From contig NZ_JAMQOT010000001.1 in assembly GCF_029502005.1 (NCBI RefSeq), positions 1 to 64,000 of the forward strand: a stretch of 64,000 nt of DNA, in the 5' to 3' direction. The stretch is from Natrinema salsiterrestre. GTDB taxonomy: Archaea; Halobacteriota; Halobacteria; Halobacteriales; Natrialbaceae. A program made the position numbers and the translations under genes. Shown in pieces: positions 42,333 through 63,053 of this stretch. The first letter of the stretch is position 1; every line of letters begins with the position of its first letter. The notes beneath the pieces are model-generated. The model saw only the letters and a program-made list of their open reading frames with translations. It was not told where the DNA came from and did not search any database.

Positions 42333-42342
42333 TAGTAATTAC
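42333..42342 (+). promoter_or_regulatory. TATA box for the subtilase gene
   Basis: tagtaattac is centred 29 nt before the ATG at 42367, giving a leaderless mRNA and supporting that start rather than the frame opening at 42193. Confidence 0.5.
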
Positions 42343-42366
42343 CTCTCTCGTGAGTGTAACGCGAGG

Positions 42367-44368: not shown

Positions 44369-45682
44369 CTACGGGTTGGACTGCCGCGGCTCCGCATCCG
44401 CTTCCGTCTCGAGCCCGCGGTCCGGTTCCGCACCGCGATCCGGGACGAGCGCTCGGACGACGTCGCGATACGCCTCGACCGCGATCTCCCTGGTGTACCG
44501 CGAGTCGAAGACCGCTCGCGCCGCCTCGCCCATCTCGTCGACGCGGTCGGGATTGGCGAGCCAGAAGCGAACGGCGTCCTCGATCCCGTCCGCGTCACCC
44601 GGGTCGACGCGAACGCCGCAGTCGGTTCGCTCGACGACCCGGCCGATTTCGGAGTCCGCGGTCGCGACGGCGAGGATCGCCTGCCCGCTCGCGAGTGCGG
44701 TGTAGAACTTGCTGGGAACGCACAGCCCCTCGACCGAGCGGTCCATCGTGACGAGGGCGACGTCGCCGCTCGTGAGCGACCGCGGCAGCACCGACTCGGG
44801 CTGGTACGGGAGGAACGTGACCGACTCGAGGTCGTACTCCCGAGCCAGGTCTCGCAATCGTTCTTTCTTCCCGCCGTCGCCGATGAACGAGAACCGAACC
44901 GGGTCGGTGTCGGCGTCTTCGAGCGCCGCTGCGGCCTCGACGGCGCTCTCGAGTTCGTGATGGTGACCGAGGTTCCCCGAGTACAGGACGGTGAGTTGCT
45001 CGTCGAAGCCGTGTCGCCGCGCGAACTCGTTGTCCGACTTCGCCCGCGGCCGGATGAACTCGCCGTCCTCCCAGTTGTGGATGACCCGGACCGGGATCGG
45101 TCCGTACTCCGACTGGAGGCGTTCCGCCATGGTCTCGCCGATCGCGATCGTCACGGACGCGCGGCGATAGGCGCGGCGGTTGAACCAGTCCCAGACGTGA
45201 CGAACGGGGCTGTCGGCGTCGATGTACTCGAGTGCGACCGCCATGGGCGGATAGAGGTCCATCACGACCGGAACGGGTCGGTAGCCCCGCCACCGGAGCG
45301 GCAACCCGGCGATGGGGAGGAACGTCGGCGTGGTCAGGAGGAAGGCGACGTCTCCGCGCCGACGGACGAGGAGGTAGGCGAGCGCCGTCAGGAAGAACGT
45401 GAGTTCGTTGAGCATCCGTTTCACGGTTCCCTCGGTTCGATCGAATCGGGTGGCGGGGAGCCGCCTGATGTCGACGCCGTCGACGGTCTCGGTCGTCGGC
45501 ACCGTCGCCTGCCGGTCTTCCGTCGTGTACGACGGATCGGTCGTCACGACGGAGACGTCGACGCCCCGTTCGGCCAGCCCGGTTGCGAGCTCGGTCAGGA
45601 CCGTCGCATTGGCTGACGTATCGGGCCGGTAGTACTGGGAGACGAAGACGACGGACGGCTCGGACGTGGCCGATTTCGGCAT
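44369..45682 (-). CDS. Glycosyltransferase family 4 (WbuB-like)
   Basis: A 437-residue cytoplasmic GT-B retaining glycosyltransferase. N-terminal half has VVFVSQYYRPDTSANATVLTEL and the C-terminal half the GT4 donor motif YSGNLGHHHELES and E-x7-E-like EGLCVPSKFYTALASG, which is typical of WbuB-like transferases that add amino or deoxy sugars. The donor is unknown; the GDP-mannose-derived sugar genes lie next to it. It converges with the protease gene, separated by only 7 bases. Confidence 0.86.
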   Translation of the reverse strand: MPKSATSEPSVVFVSQYYRPDTSANATVLTELATGLAERGVDVSVVTTDPSYTTEDRQATVPTTETVDGVDIRRLPATRFDRTEGTVKRMLNELTFFLTALAYLLVRRRGDVAFLLTTPTFLPIAGLPLRWRGYRPVPVVMDLYPPMAVALEYIDADSPVRHVWDWFNRRAYRRASVTIAIGETMAERLQSEYGPIPVRVIHNWEDGEFIRPRAKSDNEFARRHGFDEQLTVLYSGNLGHHHELESAVEAAAALEDADTDPVRFSFIGDGGKKERLRDLAREYDLESVTFLPYQPESVLPRSLTSGDVALVTMDRSVEGLCVPSKFYTALASGQAILAVATADSEIGRVVERTDCGVRVDPGDADGIEDAVRFWLANPDRVDEMGEAARAVFDSRYTREIAVEAYRDVVRALVPDRGAEPDRGLETEADAEPRQSNP

Positions 45683-45795: not shown

Positions 45796-46857
45796 ATGGA
45801 GCCCTCCAAGCGGTTGACCCAACGGCCCGTGTTCGTAACCGGTGCGGACGGATTCGTCGGTTCACACCTCGTCGAGCGACTCGTCGAGCTCGACGCGGAC
45901 GTCCACGCGCTCGTCCGCGCCACGTCCAGCGGCGAACTCAAGAACATCCGCCGCCACGGCGACGACATCACGGTCCACCGCGGCGATCTCCGCGACAAAC
46001 ACTCCGTCGAACGGGCGCTCCGTCCGCTTTCCGACCACGGCGACTCGCTGATATTCCATCTCGGTGCGCAGGCTCACGTCGGCGAGTCGTGGGAACGGCC
46101 GTACGAGACGGTCGATACGAACGTCAACGGGACGCTCAACCTCCTCCAGTCGATCGTCGACCTCGATCTCGACATCGCGAAGTTCGACATGGCCGGGACC
46201 AGCGAGGAGTACGGGAACATGAACGACGAAATGGTCGAGAAATACGAGTTCGACGGCGACGACCGCGTTCTCCTCAGCGAACGATCGCCGGTCAATCCGA
46301 CGAGCATCTACGCGACGTCGAAGCTGGCGAGTGACTTCCTGACGATGAACTACCACGACGCCTACGGACTGCCGACCGTGACGACCCGGATGTTCAACAA
46401 CTACGGCCCGAGGCAGAATCCCCGGTACATCACCGGCACGATCATCACGCAGGCGCTCGAGCGGGACGTCGTCGAACTCGGCAATCTAACTCCCAAACGC
46501 GACATGTGCTACGTCAGCGACGGTGTCCGCGGTCACCTGCACGTCGCGCTCGAGGGCAATCCCGGCGAACAGTACGTGTACGGATACGGCGAGAACGTGT
46601 CGATGCGGGAGTGGACGGAGACGATCCTCGAGGTCGGCGTCGAGGAGGGGTACTGGGAACCGACCGACATCGTGCAGTCGGAAGAGCGGTTCCGACCCGG
46701 GGACAGCGACGTCGAGGAACTGCTCGTCGGGTACGAGAAGCTCCACGAAGAGACCGGCTGGAAACCCACCGTCTCCTGGCGCGAGGGCATCCGTCGGACG
46801 ATCGACTGGTACGCGAACAACCGCCGCAGCTGGTACGGACGGGTCGATTGGCGATGA
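45796..46857 (+). CDS. GDP-mannose 4,6-dehydratase-like SDR
   Basis: A 353-residue extended SDR. It has the NAD loop [10 protein letters not shown], dehydratase acids in TSEEYG, catalytic [16 protein letters not shown] and VSDGVRGH. It is closest to GDP-mannose or dTDP-glucose 4,6-dehydratases; the fucose-synthase-like gene right after it favours GDP-mannose, giving GDP-4-keto-6-deoxymannose. It overlaps the next gene by 4 bases (ATGA). Confidence 0.86.
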
Positions 46858-47801
46858 CGACGTACTGGGACGACACGACCGTTATGGTGACCGGTGGCGC
46901 GGGGTTCCTCGGCAGCCACCTCGTCGAGGAACTGCGATCGCGATCGGCTGACGTGGCGATCTTCGTCCCCCGGAGCAGCGAGTACGATCTCCGGCGGCGA
47001 CCCGCGATCGACCGCGCGCTCGAGGACGCCGATCCCGACGTCGTCATCCACCTCGCGGCGTCCGTCGGCGGGATCGGTGCCAACAGGGACAACCCCGGTC
47101 GCTACTTCTACGACAACGCGGTGATGGGGATCGAACTGATCGAGGCCGCCCGCCAGTACGGCGTCGAGAAGGCCACGATCCTCGGCACGATCTGTGCGTA
47201 CCCGAAGCACGCACCCGTTCCGTTCAGCGAGGAGGATCTCTTCGAGGGGTACCCCGAAGAGACGAACGCTCCCTACGGCATCGCGAAGAAGGCGCTGCTG
47301 ACCCAGTCGCGGGCCTACCGGAAACAGTGGGGGTTCGACAGCATCTACCTCCTGCCGGTGAACCTGTACGGCCCGCGGGACGATTTCGACCTCGAGTCCG
47401 CCCACGTGATTCCGGCGATCGTCCGCAAGTGCATCGAGGCCCGCGAGCGCGGCGACGACGCGATCACGGCGTGGGGAACCGGCGAGCCGACCCGGGAATT
47501 CCTCTTCGTCACGGACGCCGCCGAGGGGATTCTGGACGCGACCGAGCGATACGACTCTTCGGACCCGGTCAACCTCGGGAGCGGCGAGGAGATCAGCATC
47601 CGGACGCTGGTCGAGACCATCGCGGCGGAGACGGGCTTCGAAGGCGATATTGAGTGGGACACCTCGAAACCCGACGGCCAGCCGCGGCGGAGACTCGACA
47701 CGTCCCGCGCGGCGGAGCGGTTCGGCTGGACGGCCTCGACGTCGTTTCGGGAGGGCCTCCGGGAGACGATCCGGTGGTACGAACGGTTCCGGAACGGATA
47801 G
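46854..47801 (+). CDS. GDP-L-fucose synthase-like epimerase/reductase
   Basis: A 315-residue SDR with [10 protein letters not shown], the serine/cysteine-containing loop [22 protein letters not shown], catalytic YGIAKK and [19 protein letters not shown], all typical of GDP-4-keto-6-deoxymannose 3,5-epimerase/4-reductase (GDP-fucose synthase). It could yield GDP-fucose or a related 6-deoxyhexose. Its ATG at 46854 overlaps the dehydratase TGA. The upstream part of this open frame (46506-46853) is a shadow of the preceding gene. Confidence 0.85.
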
Positions 47802-47847: not shown

Positions 47848-48990
47848 TCATCCCCCTGCGAGTTCGGTATACAACCCGTCGATCTCGTCGAAATAGGCCT
47901 CCGGATCGAACCGTGCAGCCGAGCGCCGTCGCGCCTCGCGCCCGAGTCGGTCCCGGAGCGTTGAATCGCCCGCGAGATCGCGGAGTCGTTCGACGACCGT
48001 CCCGATATCGCCCGTCTTCGCGACGAGATAGCCGGTCTCGCCGTCGTCGATCTGTTCCGGAATTCCGCCGCTTTGCGAGCCGATCACCGGCAACCCGGCC
48101 GCCATCCCTTCCAGTACGACGCCCGGGAACGGGTCCTCGTGCCTCGGGAGGTGAACCAGCACGTCCGCGGCACCGAGTACCTCGGGGAGGTCCTCGTAAA
48201 ACCCCGTCAGGGTCACGTTTTCCAGCTCTCGGACCCGCCGCTCGAGCGCCCGCGCGTACGCCTCGTGTCCCTCCACGGTTCCGCCGACCACCGCGAACTC
48301 GAGGTCCTCATCGCGCAGCCTCCTTGCCGCGTCCAGCAGCCGATCCTGCCCCTTGTCGCGGATGAGCTTCGAGACGCATACCGCGAGGGGCGCGTCCTCG
48401 TCGATACCGAACTCGGATCTGAACGCGGTACCAGCCGGGAGGTCACTGAACCGGTCCGGTGACGGCAGCCCGTCGTGGAGAACCTCGATATTCGATTCGT
48501 AGCCGACGGTTCGAAACATCACGTCCGCCGTTCGATGTGAGACGCAGACGACCCGATCGCTCAAATGGGCTCCCATCGCACCGAACGCTTTTCGCAAGTG
48601 ATAGGGATTCAAACACATCCGAACGTGGCCGATCGTTCGGCTCTGGCTCGTCGTGCCGGCGAGCAACGCGGACGGATACCTGAGCTCGTTCACGTGGACG
48701 AGATCGACGCTCTCGGTCCGAATCAGTCGGCGCAACCGACGGACGTTCTCGAGGACGCGAAACGGATACTGTAACTGATCGATAGCCGGACGACGGCTGA
48801 TCGGGTCGCCCTCGAGAACGTACGTCGGAATCCCCGCCTCCGCGTACCACGCCGCGATCCCGTCCGTTCCCGGAACCACGGCGATAGTGTCGTGACCGTA
48901 CTCGCGCATCCGGTCGGCCAGCCGGTACATCCACTGGGCCGCACCGCTGTGGATCTGCGTGGAGGTGCCGTAGTACAGGACGGTAGCCAT
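47848..48990 (-). CDS. Glycosyltransferase family 4
   Basis: A 380-residue GT-B transferase. N-terminal MATVLYYGTSTQIHSGAAQWMYRLADR; C-terminal donor half has VCVSKLIRDKGQDRLLDA and the E-x7-E motif EDPFPGVVLEGMAAGLPVIGS. The frame opens at 49122, but the ATG at 48990 begins the glycosyltransferase fold. It faces the 'sulfatase-like' gene pair divergently and converges with the fucose-synthase-like gene. Confidence 0.87.
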   Translation of the reverse strand: MATVLYYGTSTQIHSGAAQWMYRLADRMREYGHDTIAVVPGTDGIAAWYAEAGIPTYVLEGDPISRRPAIDQLQYPFRVLENVRRLRRLIRTESVDLVHVNELRYPSALLAGTTSQSRTIGHVRMCLNPYHLRKAFGAMGAHLSDRVVCVSHRTADVMFRTVGYESNIEVLHDGLPSPDRFSDLPAGTAFRSEFGIDEDAPLAVCVSKLIRDKGQDRLLDAARRLRDEDLEFAVVGGTVEGHEAYARALERRVRELENVTLTGFYEDLPEVLGAADVLVHLPRHEDPFPGVVLEGMAAGLPVIGSQSGGIPEQIDDGETGYLVAKTGDIGTVVERLRDLAGDSTLRDRLGREARRRSAARFDPEAYFDEIDGLYTELAGG

Positions 48991-49060
48991 TGGCAGTAAC
49001 CGAACGTATCGGCTCGTAAAACAGTACGGTTTTGGATATGATATTTTCAAACCACAAAAA

Positions 49061-49068
49061 AGTATAAC
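49061..49068 (+). promoter_or_regulatory. TATA box for the phosphatase-superfamily gene pair
   Basis: agtataac lies about 40 nt before the ATG at 49104, giving a leader of about 15 nt. A minus-strand ttttacg at 49015-49021 may serve the divergent GT4 gene. Confidence 0.45.
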
Positions 49069-49103
49069 AGCGGGGTCGTGGACGACAGTTCCATAGCGAA
49101 ACC

Positions 49104-50297
49104 ATGGGAGAGCCACTATCATCGCTGGACGTGTCCAACGTCTTCGTCTACGTCGGCGATGCAGTCCGCTGGGATCACACTCCTCGATCGGTACTGGATC
49201 GCGGACTCTCGTCGAAATCGATCGCCGCGTCGACGCACAGCCCGACGTCGTTCGCGTCGCTCGTCACCGGTCTCCATCCGCCCCGACACGGCGTCGACGA
49301 CTTCACGAACCGGCTGGCCGACGAGACCTACCGCCTGTTCGACGTACCGGGATACGAGACCCGATTCGTCAACTCCGTCCGAGACACGCCGGCGGGGACC
49401 GACACCGATCCGATCTTCTCGGTTCTCGACGTCCGGCCGCCGGCCGTCGACGAGCCGTTTCGGGACATCGAGGAACCGTTCGTACTCATGGAACGCGGCC
49501 CTGGTGGGCACGCGCCCTACGGCGACTTCGACGGCAGCGCCTGGGACTACTTCGAACGACGCGGTGCCCAGCCCGCCAGTGCGTATCGCGAGGAGTACGC
49601 CCGGTCCGTCGACCGCGACGCCGCCCTGTTCGCCGAGCGCCTCGAGGACCTGGCCGATCGCGGCCTCCGGGAGGACACGCTCGTCGTCTACACCGCCGAC
49701 CACGGCGAGCTGCTCGGCGAACTCGGGCTGCTCGGCCACAACGGCCCGATGCATCCGGCCCTCGTCGAGGTTCCCGCGGTGTTCGTCCATCCGGACCTCT
49801 CGACAGGTCGGCTGACCAACGGCGTGGTCAGGCACGTCGATCTGCTTCCGACGGTGCTCGACTGCCTCGACGAGAGCGGCGGTCCGACGGACGGCACGAG
49901 TATCGCGTCCGGACCGGCACGCGATCGCGGGCTCTCTTTTTATCGCTCGTCACTGCCGACCGGACCGATCGCGGGATTTAGCGGAGCGCTCGCCTACGAC
50001 GGCGTGTGGGAACTCGACGGCGGCCACGTTTTCGCTCGCACGCCGACGCACGAACGGCTCGCGGCAGTGCTGGGGACGCTCTCGAAGAGCCCGAAGCGGT
50101 CCTATCTGCGCGCGAACCTCTCGAAGGCGATCGGCGCGTACGCTGCCGGCCACCGAACCTACGGTAGGCCGTCGATAGACGCCGACGATGCCCGAACGCT
50201 CGTCGCGGAGACGCGTCGCGGAGAATCGAGCGGGCGTCAGATCGAGCTCTCCGAGGACCAGCGCACTCACCTCGAGGACTTGGGGTATCTCTCATGA
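49104..50297 (+). CDS. Alkaline-phosphatase-superfamily hydrolase/transferase ('sulfatase-like') 1
   Basis: A 397-residue metalloenzyme of the sulfatase/phosphatase superfamily. Metal-site segments are visible: D19 (YVGDAVRWDH) and YTADHGELLGE near 195, and a nucleophile region HSPTSFASLVTG (T48/S49) before RHG. There is no C-x-P-x-R or S-x-P-x-R, so it cannot make formylglycine like true sulfatases; a Ser/Thr nucleophile suggests a phosphatase, phosphodiesterase or phosphoglycerol/ethanolamine transferase. It ends with LEDLGYLS. ATGA overlap couples it to the next gene. No signal peptide is evident. Confidence 0.8.
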   Translation: MGEPLSSLDVSNVFVYVGDAVRWDHTPRSVLDRGLSSKSIAASTHSPTSFASLVTGLHPPRHGVDDFTNRLADETYRLFDVPGYETRFVNSVRDTPAGTDTDPIFSVLDVRPPAVDEPFRDIEEPFVLMERGPGGHAPYGDFDGSAWDYFERRGAQPASAYREEYARSVDRDAALFAERLEDLADRGLREDTLVVYTADHGELLGELGLLGHNGPMHPALVEVPAVFVHPDLSTGRLTNGVVRHVDLLPTVLDCLDESGGPTDGTSIASGPARDRGLSFYRSSLPTGPIAGFSGALAYDGVWELDGGHVFARTPTHERLAAVLGTLSKSPKRSYLRANLSKAIGAYAAGHRTYGRPSIDADDARTLVAETRRGESSGRQIELSEDQRTHLEDLGYLS

Positions 50298-51703
50298 GCA
50301 CCACGAGCGACGGCTACAACGTGATCCTCGTCGTTCTGGACACGGTTCGGGCGTGCCAGCTCGGACTGTACGGCCGCGAGCGCGATCCGATGCCGACCCT
50401 CTCCCGGTTCGGTGACGACGCGACGGTATTCGACCGGGCCTACACGAACGCCCCGTGGACGATGCCGGCTCACGCGTCGCTGTTCACCGGGAAGATTCCG
50501 TCGGAACACGGCTGTCACGGCGGGTCGCTCGGATTCACCACCGACCACGAGGCGCTCGCGGAGACCTTCTCGGAACGCGGGTATCGGACGTACGGGCTCA
50601 GCAACAACGTCTGGATCAGCGATCACTTCCGGTTCGATACCGGATTCGACGAGTTCTACAAGGAGTGGCAGCTGTTCAGACAGTCTCGGGAGATCGGACA
50701 CACGCTGAAGGGAGCGGACACCTCGAAGCGAGACGTACTCGAAACGCTCGCTCGAGGAAACCCGCTCGTCAACGTTCTCAACGGGCTGTACGGAAAGTAC
50801 CTGTATCGGCGCACCGACTTCGGCGGGGCACGGACGACGAACCACGTCGCAAGGTTGCTCGAGGACCGCACCGAGCCGTTCTTCCTGTTCGTCAATTACA
50901 TGGAGGGGCACGCGCCGTTCGTCGAGCACGACTGTTCGGAGCGGTTCCTCCCGAACGACCTCGAGGACGCCTCGCGATACACCGCCCTCAGCGGGAACAG
51001 CCTCGACTACCACACCGGGCGAACGGAGATTTCGGATTCGGCGTTCGAGCGCATCGAATCGCTGTACGACGGCGAACTCGCGTACCTCGACCGGCGCCTC
51101 GGACAGCTATTCGAAACGTTGCGTGCTCGAGGGTTGTTGTCGGAGTCGATCGTCGTGGTTGTCGGCGATCACGGGGAGAACGTCGGCGATCACGGGCTCA
51201 TGGCACACCGGTTTTCCGTCCACGATACGCTGTTGCACGTCCCGCTCGTCGTTCGACACCCGGACGACGGACGCGGGGAGCGCGTCGAGGAGCTGGTCGA
51301 TTTCACCGATCTCCACCGCTGGCTGGTGACCGTCCCGACGGGGCCGGCGGATCCGACGAGGATTCCGTCCGACGATCCCGTCGTCGCGGAATATCTGTCG
51401 ACGACGTACACGCCGGAGGCACAGGACGACGCGTTCGACTTCGCCGGAAGCGACTACGATCGTCGCTTACAGGCCGTCCTCACGTCGGAGCACAAGCTCA
51501 CCGTTGCCGACGACGGTGAGACGGCGCTGTACGCGTACGACGGCGGTCCGGACTTCGAACGAGACGGGGATCGGATTTCCGACGCTGCCGTCGAGTCCCG
51601 TCTCCGGGACCACTGTCCGGGATTCGAGGAAGCGTCCACCGCGAGTATCGACGAACGCGAGGCCGTCGAAGACCATCTCAAAAAGCTCGGATACATGGAC
51701 TGA
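50294..51703 (+). CDS. Alkaline-phosphatase-superfamily hydrolase/transferase ('sulfatase-like') 2
   Basis: A 469-residue relative of the preceding protein. It carries D16 (VVLDTVRA), the APWTMPAHASLFTG loop with T56 as presumed nucleophile, and GDHGENVGDHGLMAH for metal binding. Again the sulfatase cysteine/serine signature is missing. The C-terminus reads VEDHLKKLGYMD, the same LGY motif as its neighbours. It is translationally coupled to gene 1 and converges with the FkbM gene. Substrate unknown; modification of a surface glycan is inferred from context. Confidence 0.82.
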   Translation: MSTTSDGYNVILVVLDTVRACQLGLYGRERDPMPTLSRFGDDATVFDRAYTNAPWTMPAHASLFTGKIPSEHGCHGGSLGFTTDHEALAETFSERGYRTYGLSNNVWISDHFRFDTGFDEFYKEWQLFRQSREIGHTLKGADTSKRDVLETLARGNPLVNVLNGLYGKYLYRRTDFGGARTTNHVARLLEDRTEPFFLFVNYMEGHAPFVEHDCSERFLPNDLEDASRYTALSGNSLDYHTGRTEISDSAFERIESLYDGELAYLDRRLGQLFETLRARGLLSESIVVVVGDHGENVGDHGLMAHRFSVHDTLLHVPLVVRHPDDGRGERVEELVDFTDLHRWLVTVPTGPADPTRIPSDDPVVAEYLSTTYTPEAQDDAFDFAGSDYDRRLQAVLTSEHKLTVADDGETALYAYDGGPDFERDGDRISDAAVESRLRDHCPGFEEASTASIDEREAVEDHLKKLGYMD

Positions 51704-51814: not shown

Positions 51815-52648
51815 TCACGACCGCTGTCGTGCGAAAACGATACCGTCGTCGGTGGCGGTCGCGTATCCGCGATCCTCCAGGATCGTTCTGACGTCCTCGA
51901 CGGTCGACGTCCCGCGTCGCTCGGGGCGACTGTCGACGGCGAGCTTCCGGATCCCGATCCCGCTTGTCCCCGCCAACACTTCCGGTTCCGCGCCCTCGGC
52001 ATCGAGCTTCAGGAAGTCGATCTCGTCGAGACCACGTTCGGACGCGAGGGCGTCGAGACGATCCGCGGGGACCGGCACGCGGCGGCCCGTCGCCTCGTCG
52101 TCGACGTCGATCAGCGAGTGATCGCTCGCGTCGGCTCCGAGGCGTAACTGGAGGGGTTTCGACTCGCTCCAGAGCGCCCCGTGTATCGCAGTGACGTTGG
52201 AGAGGCGGCTCGTGTTGAGCTTCAGCGCGTGAAGCGTCGCGGGACTGGGTTCGATAGCGAGGACCCTCGCGGCCGTGCTCGCCGCTCCCCGCGTGAACGC
52301 GCCGACGAACGCCCCCGCGTCGACCACCGTATCGTCGGGTTCGATTTCGACGACCCCCTCGAGCGTGTACTTCGAAATCATGTTGTCCGCGTACCCCTGA
52401 CTCACCTGCCGATACTGGCCGGCGTGTGGACAGCGCGGAAAGTGGTACACGTCGCCGGTCGAACCGTTCGCCGCCACCCACGTCTCCCCCGCGGGCGTGA
52501 TACGAACGAAATCGTGAGCGGGACTCAGTCGGTGAAGGACCATCTCGTACGGGATCGCCACCGAGGTCGGAAACCGCACCCCTCCCTTCGAAAGCGCTTC
52601 CGTCACTCCGTCTCGGCGGATGGTATCGATCGCGTTGGCGGTAGCCAT
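51815..52648 (-). CDS. FkbM-family methyltransferase
   Basis: A 277-residue SAM-dependent O-methyltransferase. The FkbM core contains DDTVVDAGAFVGAFTRGAA, AIEPSPATLHALKLN, DRLDALASERGLDEIDFLKLDAEGAEPEVLAG, where the glycine-rich loop binds SAM and the acidic DAEGAE segment is typical. The long frame opens at 52837, but Met codons at 52660, 52654 and 52648 are followed by the fold; 52648 is preferred. In glycan loci FkbM enzymes methylate sugars. Confidence 0.8.
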   Translation of the reverse strand: MATANAIDTIRRDGVTEALSKGGVRFPTSVAIPYEMVLHRLSPAHDFVRITPAGETWVAANGSTGDVYHFPRCPHAGQYRQVSQGYADNMISKYTLEGVVEIEPDDTVVDAGAFVGAFTRGAASTAARVLAIEPSPATLHALKLNTSRLSNVTAIHGALWSESKPLQLRLGADASDHSLIDVDDEATGRRVPVPADRLDALASERGLDEIDFLKLDAEGAEPEVLAGTSGIGIRKLAVDSRPERRGTSTVEDVRTILEDRGYATATDDGIVFARQRS

Positions 52649-52833
52649 AACCATCCACATCACAGCCGAGTACTTACCTTTTCCACACGGTTGCACGGGA
52701 GAGACGTGAAGGCCACCCGTAACTCGTCCGGACGACATCCCCGTCCTCGAGAAATGTCCGGACGAGTCGTCGAGGACCCGAGTAACCACCGTCTTTCCTG
52801 ACTCAACCTGTCGATGCCGGAACGAACGCGGCG

Positions 52834-53736
52834 TCACATGTATCCTAACTGTTCCAGACGCGTCTCGACGGCGACCGAGTCGTAATCGTCGTCGGTCCGT
52901 TCCGGCGGTTCCGAGACGATCGTCCGCCGCGGCTCGCTCTCACAGACCATCCACGGAACGTCGACCAGTTTCGGATGGTAGACGCGCGTCGGATGGCCGT
53001 AATGTTTCACGGCGGCCGGAAAGACGCGCTCGCCCGCCATATTGCCGTGGTCGGACGAAATGACCGCCTTCCCGTCGAGTTCGTCGGCGAGCGGTATCGC
53101 CTCGTCCAGGACGAGCTCGAGGTTTTCGATGAAACACCGCCAGAGCAGCTCGTCGTCGACCCGTTCGGTCCCCCGCATCACGTGATACCACAGCGCTTGC
53201 TGTGGTTCCGGGAGCTCGCGAGCGCTCGGACCGAGAAACGGAAGATGGGGTTGCAGAAAGTGGGCGAGGATTCGCTTGTTGGGGTACTCCGCTGCTGCGG
53301 TCCGTGTCACGGACGCCATCGCCTCGGGCGGCACCGTATCCAGGTCGTCGTCCCAGTGGGTTCGCCACACGTCGTACGTCGCGTGAAATTCGACGTCGAG
53401 ATCGTCGAAGTGATTGACGAACTGCGGGTTTCCAGCGAGGTACACCACGTCGTAGAGCTCTCGCCCGTCGAAATTCGCTTTCAGCCACTCGGACGTGGCG
53501 GATCCTCGAGACGTTCGCCTTTCGATGCGGGCGTCGGGTCCGACGACCTCTCGAAACATATCGTAGCGACAGGCGTCCAGTATGAGGAGATGATCCCAAT
53601 CTGCCTCGATGACGTCGATTCCGTCGGGGCAGTGTGGTCGGGACCACGCGCGCGAATAATAGAGTTGATTCAGCTTTCTCGCGACGAGCGAGGGGCTCCG
53701 GATCCCGCGTAGTAGCTTCCGCACTGATTCCCTCAT
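52834..53736 (-). CDS. Alkaline-phosphatase-superfamily protein 3
   Basis: A 300-residue shorter member of the same superfamily. D54 and R57 (LILDACRYD) and SSDHGNMAGER near 230 provide the metal-site skeleton, and RRTSRGSATSEW (about 73-84) is where a Ser/Thr nucleophile would be. A motif FLQPHLPFLGP resembles phosphatase-type loops. It ends VETRLEQLGYM, sharing the LGY C-terminus with genes 1 and 2. It precedes fkbM and follows the STT3-like gene on the same strand with about 100-180 base gaps. Activity uncertain. Confidence 0.72.
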   Translation of the reverse strand: MRESVRKLLRGIRSPSLVARKLNQLYYSRAWSRPHCPDGIDVIEADWDHLLILDACRYDMFREVVGPDARIERRTSRGSATSEWLKANFDGRELYDVVYLAGNPQFVNHFDDLDVEFHATYDVWRTHWDDDLDTVPPEAMASVTRTAAAEYPNKRILAHFLQPHLPFLGPSARELPEPQQALWYHVMRGTERVDDELLWRCFIENLELVLDEAIPLADELDGKAVISSDHGNMAGERVFPAAVKHYGHPTRVYHPKLVDVPWMVCESEPRRTIVSEPPERTDDDYDSVAVETRLEQLGYM

Positions 53737-53853: not shown

Positions 53854-56310
53854 TCAGTCCGGACGGATGACATCGCCGTTTTCGACGGCCGCCCTCGAAA
53901 CATCGACCTCGGTTTCGCCTACCGTGTATTCACCCGGGTACGGGACCGTCGCGACTACTCGACCGTCCGAATCCGGCGTGACGGTTCGCTCGTACGGAAT
54001 CGCCTCACCCGAGACGACGACCTCGGTTTCGATCGCGACCGTCTCGTTCGGGTCCGTCACGTCGGGCTGGTTCTCGATAATCGTCGCACCCGGAACGACC
54101 GCAAACGCCGTCACCTCGTCGTCGACGAACACCGCCCGATAGTGCTCGAGTGGGGGTCCGTCCTCGCCGCCGGCACCGAGCTCGTCGTGAAGCCGTGCGT
54201 ACGTGCTCGTCGCGTCGTACTCGTTCGAGTCGGTTACGACGACGTAGCCGACGTCGGTGTTGTTGAACTGGTGGTACCAGCCGTCCGGATCGTCGCCCGC
54301 TCGGAACTCGCCGAAGTTCTGCCGGGCGTACGAGTACCGCTCCGCCCCACCGTTGACGAAATAGTTGTACATGCGGTTGTCGCCCCAGTGACTCAGGACG
54401 TACGTCTCCGGGCTCTCGCGGCCGACGTCTTCCGCGTGGTCGTCGATGGCCATCGCGGCATCGAACTGCGCGTCGCTGTGGGTCGTCTGGGCGAGCATCG
54501 ACGGCACGAAAAAGAGGTTCAGGCCACAGACTAACAGTCCGATCCAGAGCAACGCGACGAGCGTCCGGGTGTCGGTCGGGACGACGATACTCGGAACGGA
54601 CCGTTCACCACCGTCTGCGGCGGTTCCACGTCCTTCCCCACGGTTCTCGAGCCCGCTCTCGTCGCCGTCCCGAAAGAGCGCCGGTTCCCTGACGAGGTCG
54701 GCCCACGCGAGGAGCCACACGAACCCGAGCCCGCCGAGTACGGACAGCGGTATCGCCAGTTGCGCCGCGAACCGACCCTGAATCGCCGCCAGCGCGAGCC
54801 AGAACGCGCCGTAGACGGCGAGTAACAGCCATCTGGGTTCGTATCGCCGGTACGCGGCCCAGCAGGCCCATCCGAGAACCAGGATCCCGAGATAAAACCC
54901 GAGACCGAACTGCGACAGCGGTCCGAAGACGACCCCGTTTTCCAGCGCGAGTATCGATTTCGTCTCCGCCATCCCCTCCCTGTAGAAGAGTTCACCAGCG
55001 CGTTGCGCGAGTCGTGCCCAGGTGTCCGGACGGAGGGAGCGGAAGGCGACGAGCGCAACGCCGGCGACGAGCGCTTCGGATCCGAGAAGGCCTATCGCGG
55101 GCCACTCGAGGCGTCGCCACAACTCCCCCAGACCGACGACGTTTACGGCACCCGCTACGACGAGCAGGGAGACGGCCGACGTGAGGGGTTCGTGCCACCC
55201 CCAGTGGACGTGCATGGCGACGATGAGCGCGCCGCCGAGTCCGATCCCGGCCAGAAGCGGACCGTTCGTCAGGAGGGGTGAGAGGCCGGCCCGGATGTCG
55301 GCGATGACCTTCAGTCCGATGTATCCCGCGACGGGAACGAGCAATAGTATCGACCCGCCCCACGCGTGCACCGAGACGGCGAGTGCGATCCCCAACGCAC
55401 CGGCGGCGACCCACGTCGCCGGTTCGCGGCGGTGAGCGCGAGTGGCCGTTTCCGGCGTCGCATCCCGATCGAACCGCCGCTGGAAGTCCACGGCGAGCCA
55501 CGCAAGCGCGAGCAGCGTCACTCCCATGAAGACGTACTGGTAGAGGCGGTGTTCGAGAAATCCGAGCCCCGTGTAAACGGCGTGAACCGGGGTGAGTGCG
55601 AGCATCACCACTGCTGCGATCCCGACTCGGACGTCGTCCGTAACGACGACCGTCAGCCAGTAGACGACGGCGCCGAGGGCGACCGCCATGACGACCGGCA
55701 GCCACACGGCTACCGTGTTCGCCGCCCACTGATCGCCGCCGAGCAACGCGGCGGCGAACCAGTTCGCGGCGTGGGTAAACGGCCGGAGTTCGGCTGCACC
55801 CTCCGGCAGATTCGTCACGACGCTCCAGTCCGTCGGATCGCTCGATTCGGCGAGCAGTTCCTCCAGCCAGTACCGGTAGTAATAGGGATCGTTGGCCGGC
55901 GATACGACGTGATCACCGCGAACAACCGACCGATAGTTCAGGGATCGCATTACGAATACCAGTACCAACGCTCCGACGAGGCCGACGGCGGCACGCGGAT
56001 CGAACGCGATGGGAACCGACAGGTCGAATCCGGACGCCGATCGGTCCTCGGACACGGGCTCGCCGTCGAGCCCCGCTCGGACGCCGCGACGACTCGCGAC
56101 GCGATATTCGTCGCCGACCGCCGTCACGATCCCTCGTGAAACGAGTTCGCCGAACGTTCCCGAATCGAGCGGGAGATCGTCGAAGCACCAGGTGTCGCGC
56201 TCGGCGTCCACCTCGAGAACGGTTTCGAGAGCGCGCTCGCCGCTTTCGTACTCCTCACAGAAGGTCGCTGTCGCGTCGGCCACTGTGGCGGGATCCGGTT
56301 CGTCAGCCAT
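53854..56310 (-). CDS. STT3/AglB-like oligosaccharyltransferase with altered motifs
   Basis: An 818-residue membrane protein. Residues 1-80 are a soluble winged-helix-like segment not present in canonical AglB. From about 105 the STT3 membrane domain follows, with the first-loop motif as DPYYY (D141) and a later MAETKSI segment for the catalytic glutamate. The second-loop acid/histidine motif reads GFLEHRLYQ (E253) instead of D-x-H. The acceptor-site WWDYG position is replaced by SHWGDNRMYN (640-649). The frame opens at 56463, but the TATA box at 56333-56342 is 27 nt from the ATG at 56310. It is likely a divergent glycan-to-protein (or other acceptor) transferase. Confidence 0.78.
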   Translation of the reverse strand: MADEPDPATVADATATFCEEYESGERALETVLEVDAERDTWCFDDLPLDSGTFGELVSRGIVTAVGDEYRVASRRGVRAGLDGEPVSEDRSASGFDLSVPIAFDPRAAVGLVGALVLVFVMRSLNYRSVVRGDHVVSPANDPYYYRYWLEELLAESSDPTDWSVVTNLPEGAAELRPFTHAANWFAAALLGGDQWAANTVAVWLPVVMAVALGAVVYWLTVVVTDDVRVGIAAVVMLALTPVHAVYTGLGFLEHRLYQYVFMGVTLLALAWLAVDFQRRFDRDATPETATRAHRREPATWVAAGALGIALAVSVHAWGGSILLLVPVAGYIGLKVIADIRAGLSPLLTNGPLLAGIGLGGALIVAMHVHWGWHEPLTSAVSLLVVAGAVNVVGLGELWRRLEWPAIGLLGSEALVAGVALVAFRSLRPDTWARLAQRAGELFYREGMAETKSILALENGVVFGPLSQFGLGFYLGILVLGWACWAAYRRYEPRWLLLAVYGAFWLALAAIQGRFAAQLAIPLSVLGGLGFVWLLAWADLVREPALFRDGDESGLENRGEGRGTAADGGERSVPSIVVPTDTRTLVALLWIGLLVCGLNLFFVPSMLAQTTHSDAQFDAAMAIDDHAEDVGRESPETYVLSHWGDNRMYNYFVNGGAERYSYARQNFGEFRAGDDPDGWYHQFNNTDVGYVVVTDSNEYDATSTYARLHDELGAGGEDGPPLEHYRAVFVDDEVTAFAVVPGATIIENQPDVTDPNETVAIETEVVVSGEAIPYERTVTPDSDGRVVATVPYPGEYTVGETEVDVSRAAVENGDVIRPD

Positions 56311-57135: not shown

Positions 57136-58293
57136 CTAGTCGGCGACGCTGACGGACGACGTCGACGGCGTAAACAGCTGCTCGTCGAGGGCGCTCCAGT
57201 CATCGAAGTCGTCACTGCCGTCGCCAGCGGAGAATCCGTAGTACTCTCCCGGTGCGTTGTAATTCATCACGCTCGGGTAACTGCCGAAGGAGTATCGATC
57301 GGTGTCGATCCCCTCGAAATCGGCGCTCGAGAGCCCGAGCGAGTGGCCCAGTTCGTGCATCGCGACCGATCCCGTTCGGTCGCGACCCGGCAGGGATTCG
57401 ACCATCATCGTTCCAGGTCTGGCTCTCCCGATGACGTTCGTTCGTCTCGTGTCCCCGCCGACGTCCTCGACGATGACCAGATAGTGATATCCCATGCCTC
57501 TCCGATCGAAGTACCGCGATCTGTATCCGTTCAGATCGGCGGTCGTAGTCGACGATTCCCACGGCACTGTTCCACCGTCGATCAGGTGGAGGGTCACACC
57601 GGTCGACCCGTCGGGGTTTCCCAGCGGGGCCGCGTCGAATTCGGCGACGATCCGCTCCCGTTCGCCCTCCTCGAAATGAGTCCGCTCCATCGTATCGATC
57701 TCGACGTAGATATCGGTCCTGAGCGGATCGGCGTCGGGAAAGAGATCCTGCCGGTGAACCTCGGCACCGTCGGACAATCCGTCGCCGTCGCTATCGGAAT
57801 CCGTCGGATCGGTCCCGTGTTCGGTGACCTCCGGGCCGTCGTCGAGCCCGTCATCGTCCGTATCAGCCACGGTTGGATCGCTTCCGTGCTCGAGCAGCTC
57901 CGTACCGTCAGCGAGCCCGTCCCCGTCGGTATCCGCACTCGTGGGGTCGGTGCCGTACTCCTCGATTTCGTCGGGATCGGAGAGGCCGTCCCCGTCGGTA
58001 TCCGCCTCGAGCGGATCCGTCCCGTGTTCGGCCACCTCTCGCCCGTCTGCGAGGCCATCGTCGTCGGTATCGGCAGCGGTCGGGTCGGTCCCGTATCGCT
58101 TTTCTGCACCGTCCTCGAGCCCGTCGTCGTCCGTGTCCGCATCGAAGACCGCGGTGCCGTCGCGCAGTTCGACCAGCGGGGGGACGCCGTCGGAATCGGG
58201 ATCGAGAACGGTCGTGCCGCCGGCGACCCCGCCCGTAACGAGACCGGCGACGAGAACGAGAACGAAGATACCGGTGCCCCGCGACGGTAACAT
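57136..58293 (-). CDS. Secreted metalloprotease with thrombospondin-type-3 calcium repeats
   Basis: A 385-residue exported protein. After a signal peptide (residues 1-25) come about six TSP3-like repeats (D-x-D-x-DG-L-x-DG, for example DTDDDGLEDGAE, DTDGDGLSDPDE) that bind Ca2+ (about 30-175). The C-terminal metzincin-like protease has HELGH (H313, E314, H317) and a Met-turn SVMNY. The canonical third ligand position of HExxHxxGxxH is Ser; a nearby Asp (D325) or other residue may serve. A surface-linked, calcium-stabilised protease is likely. It diverges from the Lhr helicase gene. Confidence 0.85.
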   Translation of the reverse strand: MLPSRGTGIFVLVLVAGLVTGGVAGGTTVLDPDSDGVPPLVELRDGTAVFDADTDDDGLEDGAEKRYGTDPTAADTDDDGLADGREVAEHGTDPLEADTDGDGLSDPDEIEEYGTDPTSADTDGDGLADGTELLEHGSDPTVADTDDDGLDDGPEVTEHGTDPTDSDSDGDGLSDGAEVHRQDLFPDADPLRTDIYVEIDTMERTHFEEGERERIVAEFDAAPLGNPDGSTGVTLHLIDGGTVPWESSTTTADLNGYRSRYFDRRGMGYHYLVIVEDVGGDTRRTNVIGRARPGTMMVESLPGRDRTGSVAMHELGHSLGLSSADFEGIDTDRYSFGSYPSVMNYNAPGEYYGFSAGDGSDDFDDWSALDEQLFTPSTSSVSVAD

Positions 58294-58466
58294 TTCCTGA
58301 GAGTCTCGAACGGGGGGATAACTGTATTGTGGCCCCGCCGACGGCCAGTGGATCTCCGTCGAGTTCGCGCGACGGACTCCCGGCCGCGACCGCCCCGCTT
58401 CCCGACCGTTTCACTTCCGCTCCGCTGTCCAAACCCTCTTACACGCCGGCCCCCGAAACGGGGATA

Positions 58467-61400
58467 ATGCACGGGATCGAGGGCCTCGAGTTGCCGGTCG
58501 CAGACGATGCCCTCCCCTTCGATCCGGCCGCCGCAGCGATCGAGGACGGCGACGTCTTCGAGCTGCTCGAGCCCGCGGTCCAAGAGTGGTGGCTCGAGGA
58601 GTTCGGCGAGTTCGTCCCCGAGAACGAGGGGTTCTTCACGCCGCCACAGCGGGGCGCGATCCCGAAGATACACGACGGGACGAACACGCTGGTCTGTGCG
58701 CCGACCGGGAGCGGGAAGTGCGTCAAACCGGACACACCGATGATCGTTCGAGACGAGGGTGAAGCAGCAGTCCTTCGAGCGGAGGAGCTTCTCGAACGGC
58801 GGAACCGAAAGGTCGCGGACGTCGATGCGGACGGAGAACTGTACACGAGTTCGGTCGACGCGTACTCACTCGACGAAGAAGACCTCACGCTCCGTCGGTC
58901 GATGGTATACTCGGAGAGCTACGACGGGACCATTCATCGCATCCGAACGTCGTACGGGAGAGAAGTCGACGTCACACCGGATCATCCGCTCCTCGTCGAG
59001 ACGCCGTCCGGACCCGAGTGGCGCTCGGCGGCAGAGATCGAGGAAGGCGATCGGATCGGCGTTCCGACTCGTATCGAACTCCCCGAGCGGGACATCGACC
59101 TCGACGTTCGCGCTGCGCTGGATCGACTTCGATCCGAATTCCCGCTCGTCGCGACCGAGGCGGAATCGGATCGCGTCGTCGCTCGTCTCGAAGACGAGGC
59201 ACCGATTTCGGCGTTCGACGAGTCCGAGCGGAGGTTCGCACTTGCGCTCGCTGGGCTCTCGATGTCCGACGTAGCGGATCGGCTGTCGATCGGCGTTTCG
59301 TCCGTCTGGAAACTAGTGACCGGTGAAACCGAGTACTGTGCTGAGGAGTTCCTCTCGTTGCTTCGAGCGAGGTGTACGCCGCTCGAGCCTGGAGAGGTAC
59401 TCGTGAAAACCGACAACGGTCGTCTGTCCCGCTTTCGGTATCCGACGACGCTCGATTCCGAACTCGCAGAACTGGCCGCGTTCGTCCTCGCGGAGGGCCT
59501 GATCGGCGCGTACGATCGGACCCGTTTCGTCCAGGTAACCCAGAAGAACCGGACCGAACTTCTCGAACGTGCGAAGGAGACGATGTGGGATCGGTTCGGT
59601 ATCGAATTCGATCGAAAGTCGGAGATCGACTACGTCGTTTCCGACGCAGCGTTTTCCGTGTTCTTTTCGGAATTACTGGATCTCGAACCGGGACCGAGCC
59701 GCGACGTGCCGCTCCCGAACTGGGTGCTGAACGCGTCGAAACGGATTAAACGGTCGTTCCTCTCGACGTTTCTATCGCTGGAGAGCGAGGTGCGATCCAA
59801 CGAAGTCCGCCTCATACAGGCCAACGAGTTGAAGATAGAGCAGTTGTCGTACCTCTTGCTCTCGTTCGGGATCCTCCCCGCTCGCGGCCGACGGGTGAAG
59901 TACGCGACGAATACGGACGAACGGACGAGACGGGAGTATCACTCTCTCGTCGTCAGAGGGACCGAGAATCTGTCGACGCTCCTGTCGGAGTGTTCGATCG
60001 TCCATCCGAAAATCGACGAACTGGAAGCACACGCCGCCGGGCAGAGCAACGGTAATCACATCGGGCGACACACCTTCGACTATCGAGACGTTCGAACGCT
60101 GTCGAAGTACTTCGAGAACGACCGAGCGTTCAATGCCGAGCTCGGGAACATTTACGAAGTCGCCAGACGCAGCGGATACCTCACGGAACGGGCGCTGAGA
60201 AAACTGTCTACGAAACTCCAGTCGCTCCCATCTGACGAGACGACTCGTGAACTTGCGGCGCAAATCGACGAGATACGCCGTCGGAACGTCGCCTGGGTAA
60301 CCGTCGAATCGAACGAGACGTCTCGCTATAGCGGTCGAATCGTCGATCTCAGTGTTCCGGATACGCACAACTTCGTCGGTGGTCGCGGCGGACTGTACCT
60401 TCACAATACGCTTGCGTCCTTTACCTCGATCATCAACGACCTCTATCGACGGGATCGCGGCGCCGAGGACGGCCTCGAGAACTCCGTCTACTGCCTCTAC
60501 GTCTCGCCGCTGAAATCCCTCGCGAACGACATTCACCGCAATCTCGAGGTACCCCTCGAGGGGATCGAGGAGATCGTCGCCGAGCGCGACGGCGAGGAGT
60601 CGATGGGAGAGATCCGCCACGCGATCCGCCACGGCGACACCTCCTCGAGCGACCGCCAGAAGATGCTCGAGGAGACGCCCCACATTCTCAACACCACGCC
60701 CGAGACCCTCGCGATCCTGCTCAACTCGCCCAAGTTCCGCGAGAAGCTCCGCACCGTCGAGTACGTCATCGTCGACGAGATTCACTCGCTGGCGGCGGGA
60801 AAGCGCGGCACGCACCTCTCGGTCAGCCTCGAACGGCTCGAGGCCATGGCCGAGGGCGACATCACGCGGATCGGCTGTTCCGCGACGATCGAGCCGCTGT
60901 CCCGCGTGGCGGAGTTCCTCGTCGGGTGCGAGACGCCACGCGTCTCGGAAGAATCGAGTAGCGAGGGACGAGACGCGTCCCTCGAACCATGCGAGCGGAT
61001 CGAAGATCCGCGAGCAGACGGGGAGCAGAGCGACCCGCGAGATTGCGAGAAACCCGATGGTGCTCCCCGCGACTACGAGATCGTCGACGCGCGCTTCGCC
61101 CGCGAGTTCGATATGCGACTCGAGTGTCCGACGGACGACCTGATCCACACGCCCCGCGAGGTCGTCCAGGACCGGTTCTACCGGATGCTTCACGATCACA
61201 TCCAAGAGCACACGAACACGCTGGTATTCACGAACACGCGCTCGGGCGCAGAACGGGTCCTCCACAACCTTCGGGAGCGCTTCGACGCCTACGACGAGGA
61301 CAACTCGGGCTGTCACCACGGGAGCCTCTCGAAGGAGGTCAGACAGGACATCGAGGGCCGACTGAAAGAGGGCGATCTCGACGTGGTCACCACCTCGACC

Positions 61401-63053
61401 AGCCTCGAGCTGGGGATCGACATGCCCCACGTCGACCTCGTCGTGCAGGTCGGCTCGCCCAAGTCGGTGGCGGCCCTGCTCCAGCGGATCGGGCGCGCGG
61501 GCCACCGCGTCGGCCAGACCGTCACGGGGCGAGTGATCGCGCTCGACCGGGACGAACTGCTCGAGTGTGCGGTGATGCTGAAGAAGGCCACCGAGGGGTT
61601 CGTCGACTCGGTGTCGATCCCCGAGAACGCTCAGGACGTGGCGGCCCAGCACGTCTACGGCATGGCGATCGCAGAAATTCGGCCCGAGGCCGACCTGAAG
61701 GCGACGCTCCGCCGGGCCTATCCCTACCGCAACTACACCGACGACGAGTACGAGTCGCTCATGCGGTACCTCACCGCAGAGTACGCCGGGCTCGAGGAGA
61801 AGAACGTCTACGCCAAGGTCTGGCGCGACGAGAACGACCCGCCCGACGGGCAACACCACCACGAGGCGTTCCCGGTCGGCGAGCCGCTGATCGGCAAGCG
61901 CGGTCGGCTCGCGCGGGTGATCTACATGACCAACATCGGGACGATCCCGGACTCCTTCACGTGCGACGTCAACACGCGCGCGAGCGACGAGTGGGTCGGC
62001 CAGTTAGACGAGGAGTACCTCGACACCCTCGAGAAGGGCGACGTCTTCGTTCTCGGCGGTGACAGCTTCGAGTACCGCTATCGGCGCGGCTCGAAGGTCT
62101 ACGTCGACCGCACGAGCGCCCGTCCCACCGTTCCGTCGTGGTACTCCGAACGGCTCCCGCTGTCGTACGACCTCGGCCGCGAGATCCTCGCGTTTCAGGG
62201 CGACCTCCTCGAGCGCTACGTGGCCGGCGGCCCGCCGCGGGTCCGCGCCTGGCTCCGGGAGTTCCCGCTCGACGACGACAGCGTGCGGGCGATCGCCCGG
62301 CTGTTCGACCACCAGATCCAGTACGCCGGGACGGAGAGCGTGAGTACGACCGATCGGCTGGCGATCGAAGTCGTCCGCGATCGCGACGAGTACGAACGCC
62401 ACTACTACGTCCACTCGACGTACGGCCGCAAGGTCAACGACGGACTCTCGCGACTGCTCGCCTACCGCTGTGCCCAGGAGGCGACGGCGAACGTCCGCGT
62501 GGCCGTCGCGGACAACGGGTTCGTCCTCTCCATGCCGCTGAACCGGAAAGTCGACATCGACGGGATCGTCGCGGACCTCGAGGCCGAGCAGGTCCGCGAC
62601 GATCTCCGCGCATCGCTCTCGGGCACCGACCTGCTCCAGCGGTACTTCCGGATCAACGCGACCCGCTCGCTGATGATCCTCAAGCGCTACAAGGGCTACG
62701 AGAAGTCCGCGAGCGAACAGCAGGTCTCCAGCGAGATGCTGCTGGGCTTCGCCGAGGACCTCGAGAACTTCGCCGTAATCGAGGAGACCTACCGCGAGAT
62801 CCTCGAGGACAAACTGAACGTGGCCGAGATCGAGGCCATCGTCGATGCGATCGATTCGGGCGGGCTCGACGTGTCACGGCAACTCCTCGATTCGCCGACG
62901 CCGCGGGCGTTCGGCCTCGCGACGCTGTCGGCCAGCGACGTGGTCCTCGCCGAGGACGAGAGCGCCGCGCTCCAGTCGTTCCACGAGGACGTCCTCGCGG
63001 AGATCGGCGGGGAGTCACTCGACGGGCTGTCGACGAGTTCGGACCCCGAGTAG
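58467..63053 (+). CDS. Lhr-type DEAD/H-box helicase interrupted by an intein
   Basis: A 1528-residue precursor; removing the intein (58719-60407) leaves a 965-residue Lhr-like superfamily 2 DNA helicase, typical length. Extein motifs: APTGSGK|TLASFTS (Walker A, split by the intein), DEIHSLAAGKRGTH, CSATIEPL, TNTRSGAERV, TSTSLELGID and QRIGRAGHR, followed by the Lhr C-terminal winged-helix and unassigned domains. Lhr unwinds DNA-RNA hybrids and branched DNA in repair. A disordered insert of about 40 residues (60930-61060) separates the two RecA folds. The frame opens at 58329, but MHGIEGL at 58467 is the likely start. The helicase cannot bind ATP until the intein is spliced out. Confidence 0.9.
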   Translation: MHGIEGLELPVADDALPFDPAAAAIEDGDVFELLEPAVQEWWLEEFGEFVPENEGFFTPPQRGAIPKIHDGTNTLVCAPTGSGKCVKPDTPMIVRDEGEAAVLRAEELLERRNRKVADVDADGELYTSSVDAYSLDEEDLTLRRSMVYSESYDGTIHRIRTSYGREVDVTPDHPLLVETPSGPEWRSAAEIEEGDRIGVPTRIELPERDIDLDVRAALDRLRSEFPLVATEAESDRVVARLEDEAPISAFDESERRFALALAGLSMSDVADRLSIGVSSVWKLVTGETEYCAEEFLSLLRARCTPLEPGEVLVKTDNGRLSRFRYPTTLDSELAELAAFVLAEGLIGAYDRTRFVQVTQKNRTELLERAKETMWDRFGIEFDRKSEIDYVVSDAAFSVFFSELLDLEPGPSRDVPLPNWVLNASKRIKRSFLSTFLSLESEVRSNEVRLIQANELKIEQLSYLLLSFGILPARGRRVKYATNTDERTRREYHSLVVRGTENLSTLLSECSIVHPKIDELEAHAAGQSNGNHIGRHTFDYRDVRTLSKYFENDRAFNAELGNIYEVARRSGYLTERALRKLSTKLQSLPSDETTRELAAQIDEIRRRNVAWVTVESNETSRYSGRIVDLSVPDTHNFVGGRGGLYLHNTLASFTSIINDLYRRDRGAEDGLENSVYCLYVSPLKSLANDIHRNLEVPLEGIEEIVAERDGEESMGEIRHAIRHGDTSSSDRQKMLEETPHILNTTPETLAILLNSPKFREKLRTVEYVIVDEIHSLAAGKRGTHLSVSLERLEAMAEGDITRIGCSATIEPLSRVAEFLVGCETPRVSEESSSEGRDASLEPCERIEDPRADGEQSDPRDCEKPDGAPRDYEIVDARFAREFDMRLECPTDDLIHTPREVVQDRFYRMLHDHIQEHTNTLVFTNTRSGAERVLHNLRERFDAYDEDNSGCHHGSLSKEVRQDIEGRLKEGDLDVVTTSTSLELGIDMPHVDLVVQVGSPKSVAALLQRIGRAGHRVGQTVTGRVIALDRDELLECAVMLKKATEGFVDSVSIPENAQDVAAQHVYGMAIAEIRPEADLKATLRRAYPYRNYTDDEYESLMRYLTAEYAGLEEKNVYAKVWRDENDPPDGQHHHEAFPVGEPLIGKRGRLARVIYMTNIGTIPDSFTCDVNTRASDEWVGQLDEEYLDTLEKGDVFVLGGDSFEYRYRRGSKVYVDRTSARPTVPSWYSERLPLSYDLGREILAFQGDLLERYVAGGPPRVRAWLREFPLDDDSVRAIARLFDHQIQYAGTESVSTTDRLAIEVVRDRDEYERHYYVHSTYGRKVNDGLSRLLAYRCAQEATANVRVAVADNGFVLSMPLNRKVDIDGIVADLEAEQVRDDLRASLSGTDLLQRYFRINATRSLMILKRYKGYEKSASEQQVSSEMLLGFAEDLENFAVIEETYREILEDKLNVAEIEAIVDAIDSGGLDVSRQLLDSPTPRAFGLATLSASDVVLAEDESAALQSFHEDVLAEIGGESLDGLSTSSDPE
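58719..60407 (+). other. Intein in the Walker A motif of Lhr, with LAGLIDADG-like endonuclease
   Basis: A 563-residue in-frame intein. It starts CVKPDTPMIV (block A, C1), has TPDHPLLVETPSG (block B), and ends RYSGRIVDLSVPDTHNFVGGR...LYLHN with T as +1 residue. So the host Walker A is rebuilt as GSGK-T. Mid-region motifs LAAFVLAEGLIG and FLSTFLSLES look like two LAGLIDADG helices with acidic residues retained, suggesting an active or recently active homing endonuclease. An HTH-like segment (SMSDVADRLSIGVSSVWKLV) sits between HINT and endonuclease parts. Confidence 0.88.
60962..61011. repeat. Two hairpin-forming palindromes inside the Lhr coding sequence
   Basis: cgagggac...gtccctcg (60962-60969 with 60977-60984) and gcggatc-gaa-gatccgc (60995-61001 with 61005-61011) are perfect inverted repeats in the insert encoding SSSEGRDASLEPCERIEDPR. 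They keep the reading frame. The pattern fits a short palindromic element inserted in a loop. Confidence 0.6.

Follow-up and report, generated by a model that had tools for sequence, protein, structure and literature searches.

An open reading frame (ORF) near the beginning of a Natrinema salsiterrestre contig encodes an STT3-fold, oligosaccharyltransferase-like protein without the WWDYG motif and, judged from sequence, belongs to what is a separate and widespread haloarchaeal branch of STT3 enzymes beside the canonical AglB. The window, i.e. the whole stretch of 64,000 nt analyzed here, is the beginning of contig C11 (NZ_JAMQOT010000001.1) of this 4.8 Mb genome, and the ORF lies at positions 53854–56310 on the minus strand, coordinates that the initial annotation had given correctly; the ATG start yields a protein of 818 amino acids (aa) and an alternative TTG start one of 869 aa. 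We propose, at a probability of roughly 0.55, that this family represents a second oligosaccharyltransferase in haloarchaea, distinct from AglB, that uses a donor started by a PF02397 enzyme, accepts an asparagine of the mature S-layer glycoprotein at about position 2, and is the enzyme behind the Asn-2 glycan of Halobacterium salinarum. The protein is probably active, and the family, going by its genomic associations, is probably specialized in both donor and acceptor.

The separation of this family from AglB was supported by profile scores, phylogeny and distribution. The 818-aa protein scored 19.2 bits against Pfam STT3 (cut-off 24.5) and 137.4 bits against the NCBIfam model archaeo_STT3 (TIGR04154), whose curated cut-off of 450 was not reached; because both STT3 models stay under their cut-offs, routine annotation can overlook such proteins or label them vaguely. 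Six haloarchaeal family records in a plasmid collection were labelled ‘STT3 domain-containing protein’, ‘hypothetical protein’ or ‘LamG-like jellyroll fold’, and a phmmer search of PDB sequences with the protein as query had no match. Against the family profile, full-length members scored at least 683 bits and one fragment 347, and all other STT3 rows scored at most 144. In a tree built by a quick maximum-likelihood method with a midpoint root, 45 family and 62 AglB-type rows fell on the two sides of one branch with a Shimodaira–Hasegawa-like approximate likelihood ratio test (SH-aLRT) support of 100, and the phylogenetic comparison suggested by the initial annotation thus places the gene outside the AglB clade. 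The family was present in 158 of the 292 sampled genomes of the class, two of which (G069 and G286) hold only fragment or AglB-type matches, and in 53 of 77 genera. Replacement of AglB by the family was rejected, since canonical AglB scored over the TIGR04154 cut-off in 287 of the 292 genomes; a spread beyond haloarchaea was also rejected, as rows from outside the order reached at most 95 bits in a 196-genome sample of the phylum, compared with at least 684 bits for full-length members.

The window genome itself contains one canonical, WWDYG-bearing AglB (C11:172951–175611, 876 bits against TIGR04154), the additional gene for which a search had initially been advised, as well as a second family member (C21:30800–33235) with 52% identity. 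At its locus (L082, G000:C21:20001–40000), this second member lies next to NeuB, which serves sialic-acid-type sugar synthesis, and to an ABC transporter, suggesting that the two copies may serve different glycans. In another genome (G085), a second copy at C1:2937861–2940281 carries internal TGA, TAG and TAA codons and is a decayed paralogue, with an intact copy present in the same genome.

The AlphaFold2 model, for which 39 own-locus sequences were used as input (mean predicted local distance difference test score, pLDDT, of 88), had AglB of Archaeoglobus fulgidus (7e9s) as its closest solved structure (Z 32.7, root-mean-square deviation 4.3, 647 residues), followed by eukaryotic STT3 and then PglB. 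Since the AglB match extends over model residues 101–818, the STT3 fold covers the whole protein apart from the first 100 residues, and the presence of the C-terminal globular domain in the model and its PDB matches agrees with the STT3-like identity originally assigned. In A. fulgidus AglB, according to the available part of the structural report (PMC8342417), the ligands are Asp47, Asp161, His163 and Glu360, and the Ser/Thr pocket of the sequon is formed by WWDYG together with DK/MI. When 85 distinct family members were aligned, D141 and the distal glutamate E449, both previously described as retained, were found in all 85 and in 83, respectively. The altered WWDYG was likewise borne out as SHWGDNRMYN at residues 640–649, and the family consensus at this place is SxWGxNR(M/V)YNYFV, with W642 conserved in 84/85 and R646 and N649 in 85/85; WWDYG itself occurred in 0 of the 27 family rows among the matches listed (one of them a fragment), the window protein included. 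GFLEHR, the other deviation pointed out at the start, is indeed present at residues 250–255, but proved to be a subclade state and not a family trait: H254 is kept in 85/85 members, and the second metal motif reads Asp-His-His, as in AglB, in 41/85, Glu-His-Arg, the type of the window, in 34/85, Asp-His-Gln in 7/85 and otherwise in 3/85. The idea that GFLEHR defines a new catalytic type was therefore rejected, Asp-His-His being the commonest state. With the catalytic residues kept and WWDYG replaced, the family looks, as far as its motifs tell, fit for catalysis and not made for the known mode of reading Ser/Thr at +2. Compared with AglB (GT66; TIGR04154; A. fulgidus 7e9s, 3waj and 5gmy), it shares the fold over 101–818, the first DXD Asp, the TIXE-type Glu and the QxRF Arg, whereas it differs in the replaced WWDYG, an extra N-terminal domain, a clade of its own, scores under the curated cut-offs, and a patchy occurrence beside glycan and S-layer genes.

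The extra winged-helix-like N-terminal segment of the initial annotation is real, as residues 7–82 of the model form three helices, two short strands and one helix, and F53, V57 and V62 are invariant in the 39-sequence alignment. No Pfam family matched the stretch of residues 1–82 itself. The first 110 positions of the family profile also matched the N-termini of ~300-aa haloarchaeal proteins, and the one examined, a 304-aa ORF at locus L316, is an EMC3/TMCO1-type membrane protein of the Oxa1 superfamily (PF01956, 157 bits). Because an insertase relative and a glycosyltransferase have a cytosolic domain in common, we speculate that this N-terminal domain might serve docking at the translocon, the place at which Asn-2 would be the first to emerge.

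On the donor side, the distribution of the family followed that of PF02397, whose enzymes transfer a sugar phosphate to polyprenyl phosphate and so create a pyrophosphate link. Both the family and PF02397 were present in 150 of the 292 genomes, the family alone in 8, PF02397 alone in 27 and neither in 107, corresponding to an odds ratio of 74 (p = 2e-43, with kinship between genomes ignored). Four listed family-negative genomes of the window’s genus (G025, G028, G091 and G107) were also without PF02397, and the control genome of Haloferax volcanii had no PF02397 match. Among 40 neighbourhoods, in two of which (L062 and L072) the family gene itself was missed by ORF picking, a PF02397-type gene was the commonest companion (28/40), in many cases on the same strand at a distance of a few hundred bases; PF02397 membership was checked by Pfam in the window, in the Halobacterium-type genome G018 and at C21. 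The island in the window fits the expectation for a repeating-unit glycan through its GlmS, dehydrogenase, epimerase, Wzx-type, Wzy-like and two glycosyltransferase family 4 (GT4) genes (Table 1). The donor would be a dolichyl-pyrophosphate glycan begun by the PF02397 phosphotransferase, with the Wzx- and Wzy-like proteins encoded in the island flipping and polymerizing it. The island also contains the gene of a subtilase (42193–44361, plus strand) that weakly matches an H-type lectin.

On the acceptor side, an S-layer glycoprotein gene was located within 25 kb of the family gene in 8 of 23 genomes, against 0.44 expected from random placement. These 23 genomes were family-positive, had an S-layer protein over the TIGR04216 cut-off and had the place of the family gene among the matches listed; G212, G270, G240 and G281, which had an S-layer match over the cut-off but no such listed place, were left out, and genes on separate contigs were counted as unlinked. 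The mature N-termini of S-layer-type proteins were then compared, using the highest-scoring rows from two family searches (60 loci plus 100 further stretches and 2 window genes, with repeats merged) and leaving out G059 and G066, with no recognized cleavage motif, and L096, L101 and L114, with no recognized signal. Asn occurred within mature residues 1–3 in 49/72 N-termini of family-positive genomes versus 12/75 of family-negative ones (p = 9e-11; 50/69 versus 11/73 in an earlier parse), and no difference was found at residues 4–6, 7–9, 10–12 and 13–15 (14/12, 12/14, 13/11 and 17/15, positive/negative). An Asn in the first three residues outside any N-x-S/T sequon was present in 33/72 versus 6/75. 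By genus, the mean fraction with an N-terminal Asn was 0.62 over 25 genera for family-positive genomes and 0.17 over 22 genera for negative ones, and nine genera with both kinds of genome behaved as expected in seven cases, with one tie and one (g54) in the opposite direction. The two neighbouring, similar PGF-CTERM proteins of the window both carry an Asn close to the start of the mature chain, where neither has a sequon. Read from sequence, these associations suggest that long sugar chains are put near the front end of the S-layer protein without the usual recognition signal; the acceptor would be the Asn of the mature glycoprotein at about position 2, recognized by its N-terminal place and not by Ser/Thr at +2. 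The S-layer N-termini thereby lend indirect support to the acceptor other than N-x-S/T that the initial annotation had considered.

This donor and acceptor resemble those of a known activity. As described in the available portion of a 2010 review (PMC2952790), the S-layer glycoprotein of H. salinarum carries at Asn-2 a repeating-unit glycan built on dolichyl pyrophosphate, and this site is still glycosylated when Ser-4 is changed to Val, Leu or Asn, for which ‘No suitable explanation’ was offered; genome sequencing is said there to have given a single oligosaccharyltransferase gene. A 2019 paper (PMC6591318), in its accessible part, leaves undecided whether AglB handles the Asn-2 repeating-unit glycan, and no paper with the phrase ‘second oligosaccharyltransferase’ was found in a literature search limited to open-licence papers. 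Because the PF02397 partner, the S-layer linkage and the N-terminal Asn without sequon match the Asn-2 glycan, we propose the family as the missing second oligosaccharyltransferase, which would make it the enzyme of the repeating-unit glycan at Asn-2 in H. salinarum. The pyrophosphate carrier, the N-terminal Asn of the S-layer protein and the Ser-independence of the activity all fit the genomic associations of the family, whereas the link between the two is one that we infer. In G018 the S-layer gene, the family gene, glmS, two nucleotidyltransferases and PF02397 all lie within 14 kb (locus L080: S-layer 4446–6986, family gene 10302–12623, PF02397 16960–18375), and the mature S-layer start assigned by motif rule is ANAD, i.e. 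an Asn-2 without sequon. A gene family lying under the usual annotation cut-offs would in this way fit the donor, acceptor and genome distribution of a decades-old orphan activity. A more specific and clearly more tentative version is that N-glycosylation here may be sequon-free and position-reading, in which an enzyme held at the translocon, through the winged-helix-like domain in common with the EMC3/TMCO1-type insertase, would add a pre-polymerized, pyrophosphate-linked polysaccharide as a cap at about Asn-2 once the S-layer N-terminus has been freshly cleaved. If true, the family would provide an STT3-type enzyme whose acceptor rule differs from N-x-S/T, which would help to explain sequon reading and be of use in glycoprotein engineering.

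The low-salt glycosylation of Hfx. volcanii is also an AglB-independent N-glycan of an S-layer protein, at Asn-498, and AglB is the only STT3 homologue of this species, according to the part of the report available (PMC3871713). In contrast to the present case, all N-termini from the Haloferax-like genus g40 came from family-negative genomes. Identity of the family with the missing low-salt enzyme was thus unsupported, given the sole STT3 homologue, the absence of a PF02397 match and the family-negative g40.

Several observations weigh against the proposed second oligosaccharyltransferase. PF02397 was present without the family in 27 genomes, and when these were re-searched with the family profile, AglB-type or partial matches and no divergent member were obtained. 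G018 is tied to H. salinarum solely by 3208 bases identical to pNRC200; the tested piece of the R1 plasmid PHS1 was absent from it, its S-layer N-terminus is ANAD as against the published Asn-Ala-Ser of H. salinarum, and an H. salinarum S-layer N-terminus written as a degenerate pattern had no match in it. In the window, the S-layer-like genes are ~39 kb from the oligosaccharyltransferase gene. An Asn is missing from residues 1–3 in 23/72 family-positive N-termini, and in genus g54 it was found in 0/4 with the family versus 1/2 without it. Signal cleavage was assigned by motif rule, and the statistics on PF02397, S-layer linkage and N-terminal Asn ignore phylogeny. Moreover, the subclade of the window has Glu-x-Arg where the metal ligand is Asp-x-His.

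The last point, seen in 34/85 members, would also be expected of an AglB relative that has lost catalysis and acts as a regulator or scaffold, as would the broken copy in G085; this explanation is hardly credible, given that nearly all members retain the first Asp, the TIXE-type Glu and the QxRF Arg, and 41/85 have Asp-His-His. An enzyme specialized in its donor, which transfers a dolichyl-pyrophosphate glycan onto ordinary N-x-S/T and for which the N-terminal Asn of S-layer proteins is a by-product, would account for the PF02397 co-occurrence by itself and for the 16 of 50 N-terminal Asn that lay within sequons in family-positive genomes (earlier parse). It is the likeliest of the alternatives and still improbable, as the Ser/Thr-pocket motif is replaced across the family and Asn without sequon was found at 33/72 versus 6/75 N-termini. 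The island, with its Wzx- and Wzy-like genes, sulfatase-fold proteins and PF02397, resembles an exopolysaccharide locus, and the protein could accordingly be a surface-polysaccharide ligase acting on a non-protein acceptor (lipid or another glycan) in a role like that of bacterial O-antigen ligases; the whole-length match to protein-modifying STT3 enzymes, C-terminal globular domain included, and the linkage to S-layer genes make this rather less probable again. The same linkage would suit an enzyme for O-glycosylation of the Thr-rich region of S-layer proteins, which we consider very unlikely, because PF02397/Wzy would be expected to give a polymeric donor, and because the Hfx. volcanii S-layer has O-linked disaccharides though AglB is the sole STT3 homologue there (PMC3871713, available part).

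Table 1. Features of the window that bear on the STT3-like gene, its expected donor and its candidate acceptors.
Feature	Position	Strand	Evidence or remark
STT3-fold oligosaccharyltransferase-like ORF, without WWDYG	53854–56310	minus	ATG start, 818 aa
N-terminal winged-helix-like domain, residues 1–82	56065–56310	minus	model secondary structure; profile match to EMC3/TMCO1-type N-terminus
D141, aligns with AglB Asp47 (first DXD)	55888–55890	minus	85/85
GFLEHR, residues 250–255, aligns with AglB second DXD (Asp161-His-His163)	55546–55563	minus	alignment
E449, candidate TIXE glutamate (external loop 5, EL5)	54964–54966	minus	83/85
R513 of QxRF, also in AglB of the same genome	54772–54774	minus	85/85
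SHWGDNRMYNY, residues 640–650, at the WWDYG place	54361–54393	minus	alignment
Polyprenyl glycosylphosphotransferase (PF02397), expected maker of the pyrophosphate-linked first sugar	34434–35834	plus	170 bits
GlmS-like aminotransferase (N-acetylhexosamine, HexNAc, supply)	32358–34157	plus	
UDP-sugar dehydrogenase and NAD-dependent epimerase, two genes	36374–38759	plus	
Putative O-antigen-polymerase-like protein (Wzy-type), PF01901	38907–40340	minus	33.9 bits, cut-off 24.2
Wzx-type flippase (PF01943)	40665–42170	plus	Pfam
GT4-type glycosyltransferase	44369–45682	minus	
Two nucleotide-sugar epimerase/dehydratase genes	45796–47801 (45796–46857; 46506–47801 as longest ORF)	plus	
Second GT4-type glycosyltransferase	47848–49122	minus	
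Two sulfatase-fold proteins	49104–51703	plus	
FkbM methyltransferase and 300-aa protein (no Pfam match)	51815–53736	minus	downstream of the oligosaccharyltransferase gene, same strand
S-layer-like PGF-CTERM protein, candidate acceptor	12025–14541	minus	mature start near ENAEFEDSD
Second S-layer-like PGF-CTERM protein, candidate acceptor	8505–10985	minus	mature start near ENAQFEDSD

Two further genes of the window were recorded on the far side of the STT3-like gene. The ORF at 57136–58293 (minus strand) encodes a secreted protein in which TSP3-type calcium repeats (PF18884) precede a zinc-protease-like motif, HELGHSLG. An Lhr-like helicase frame of 1574 aa (58329–63053, plus strand) is interrupted directly after GSGK by an intein-like insert, which begins with CVKPDTP, ends with a terminal HN and is followed by TLASF.
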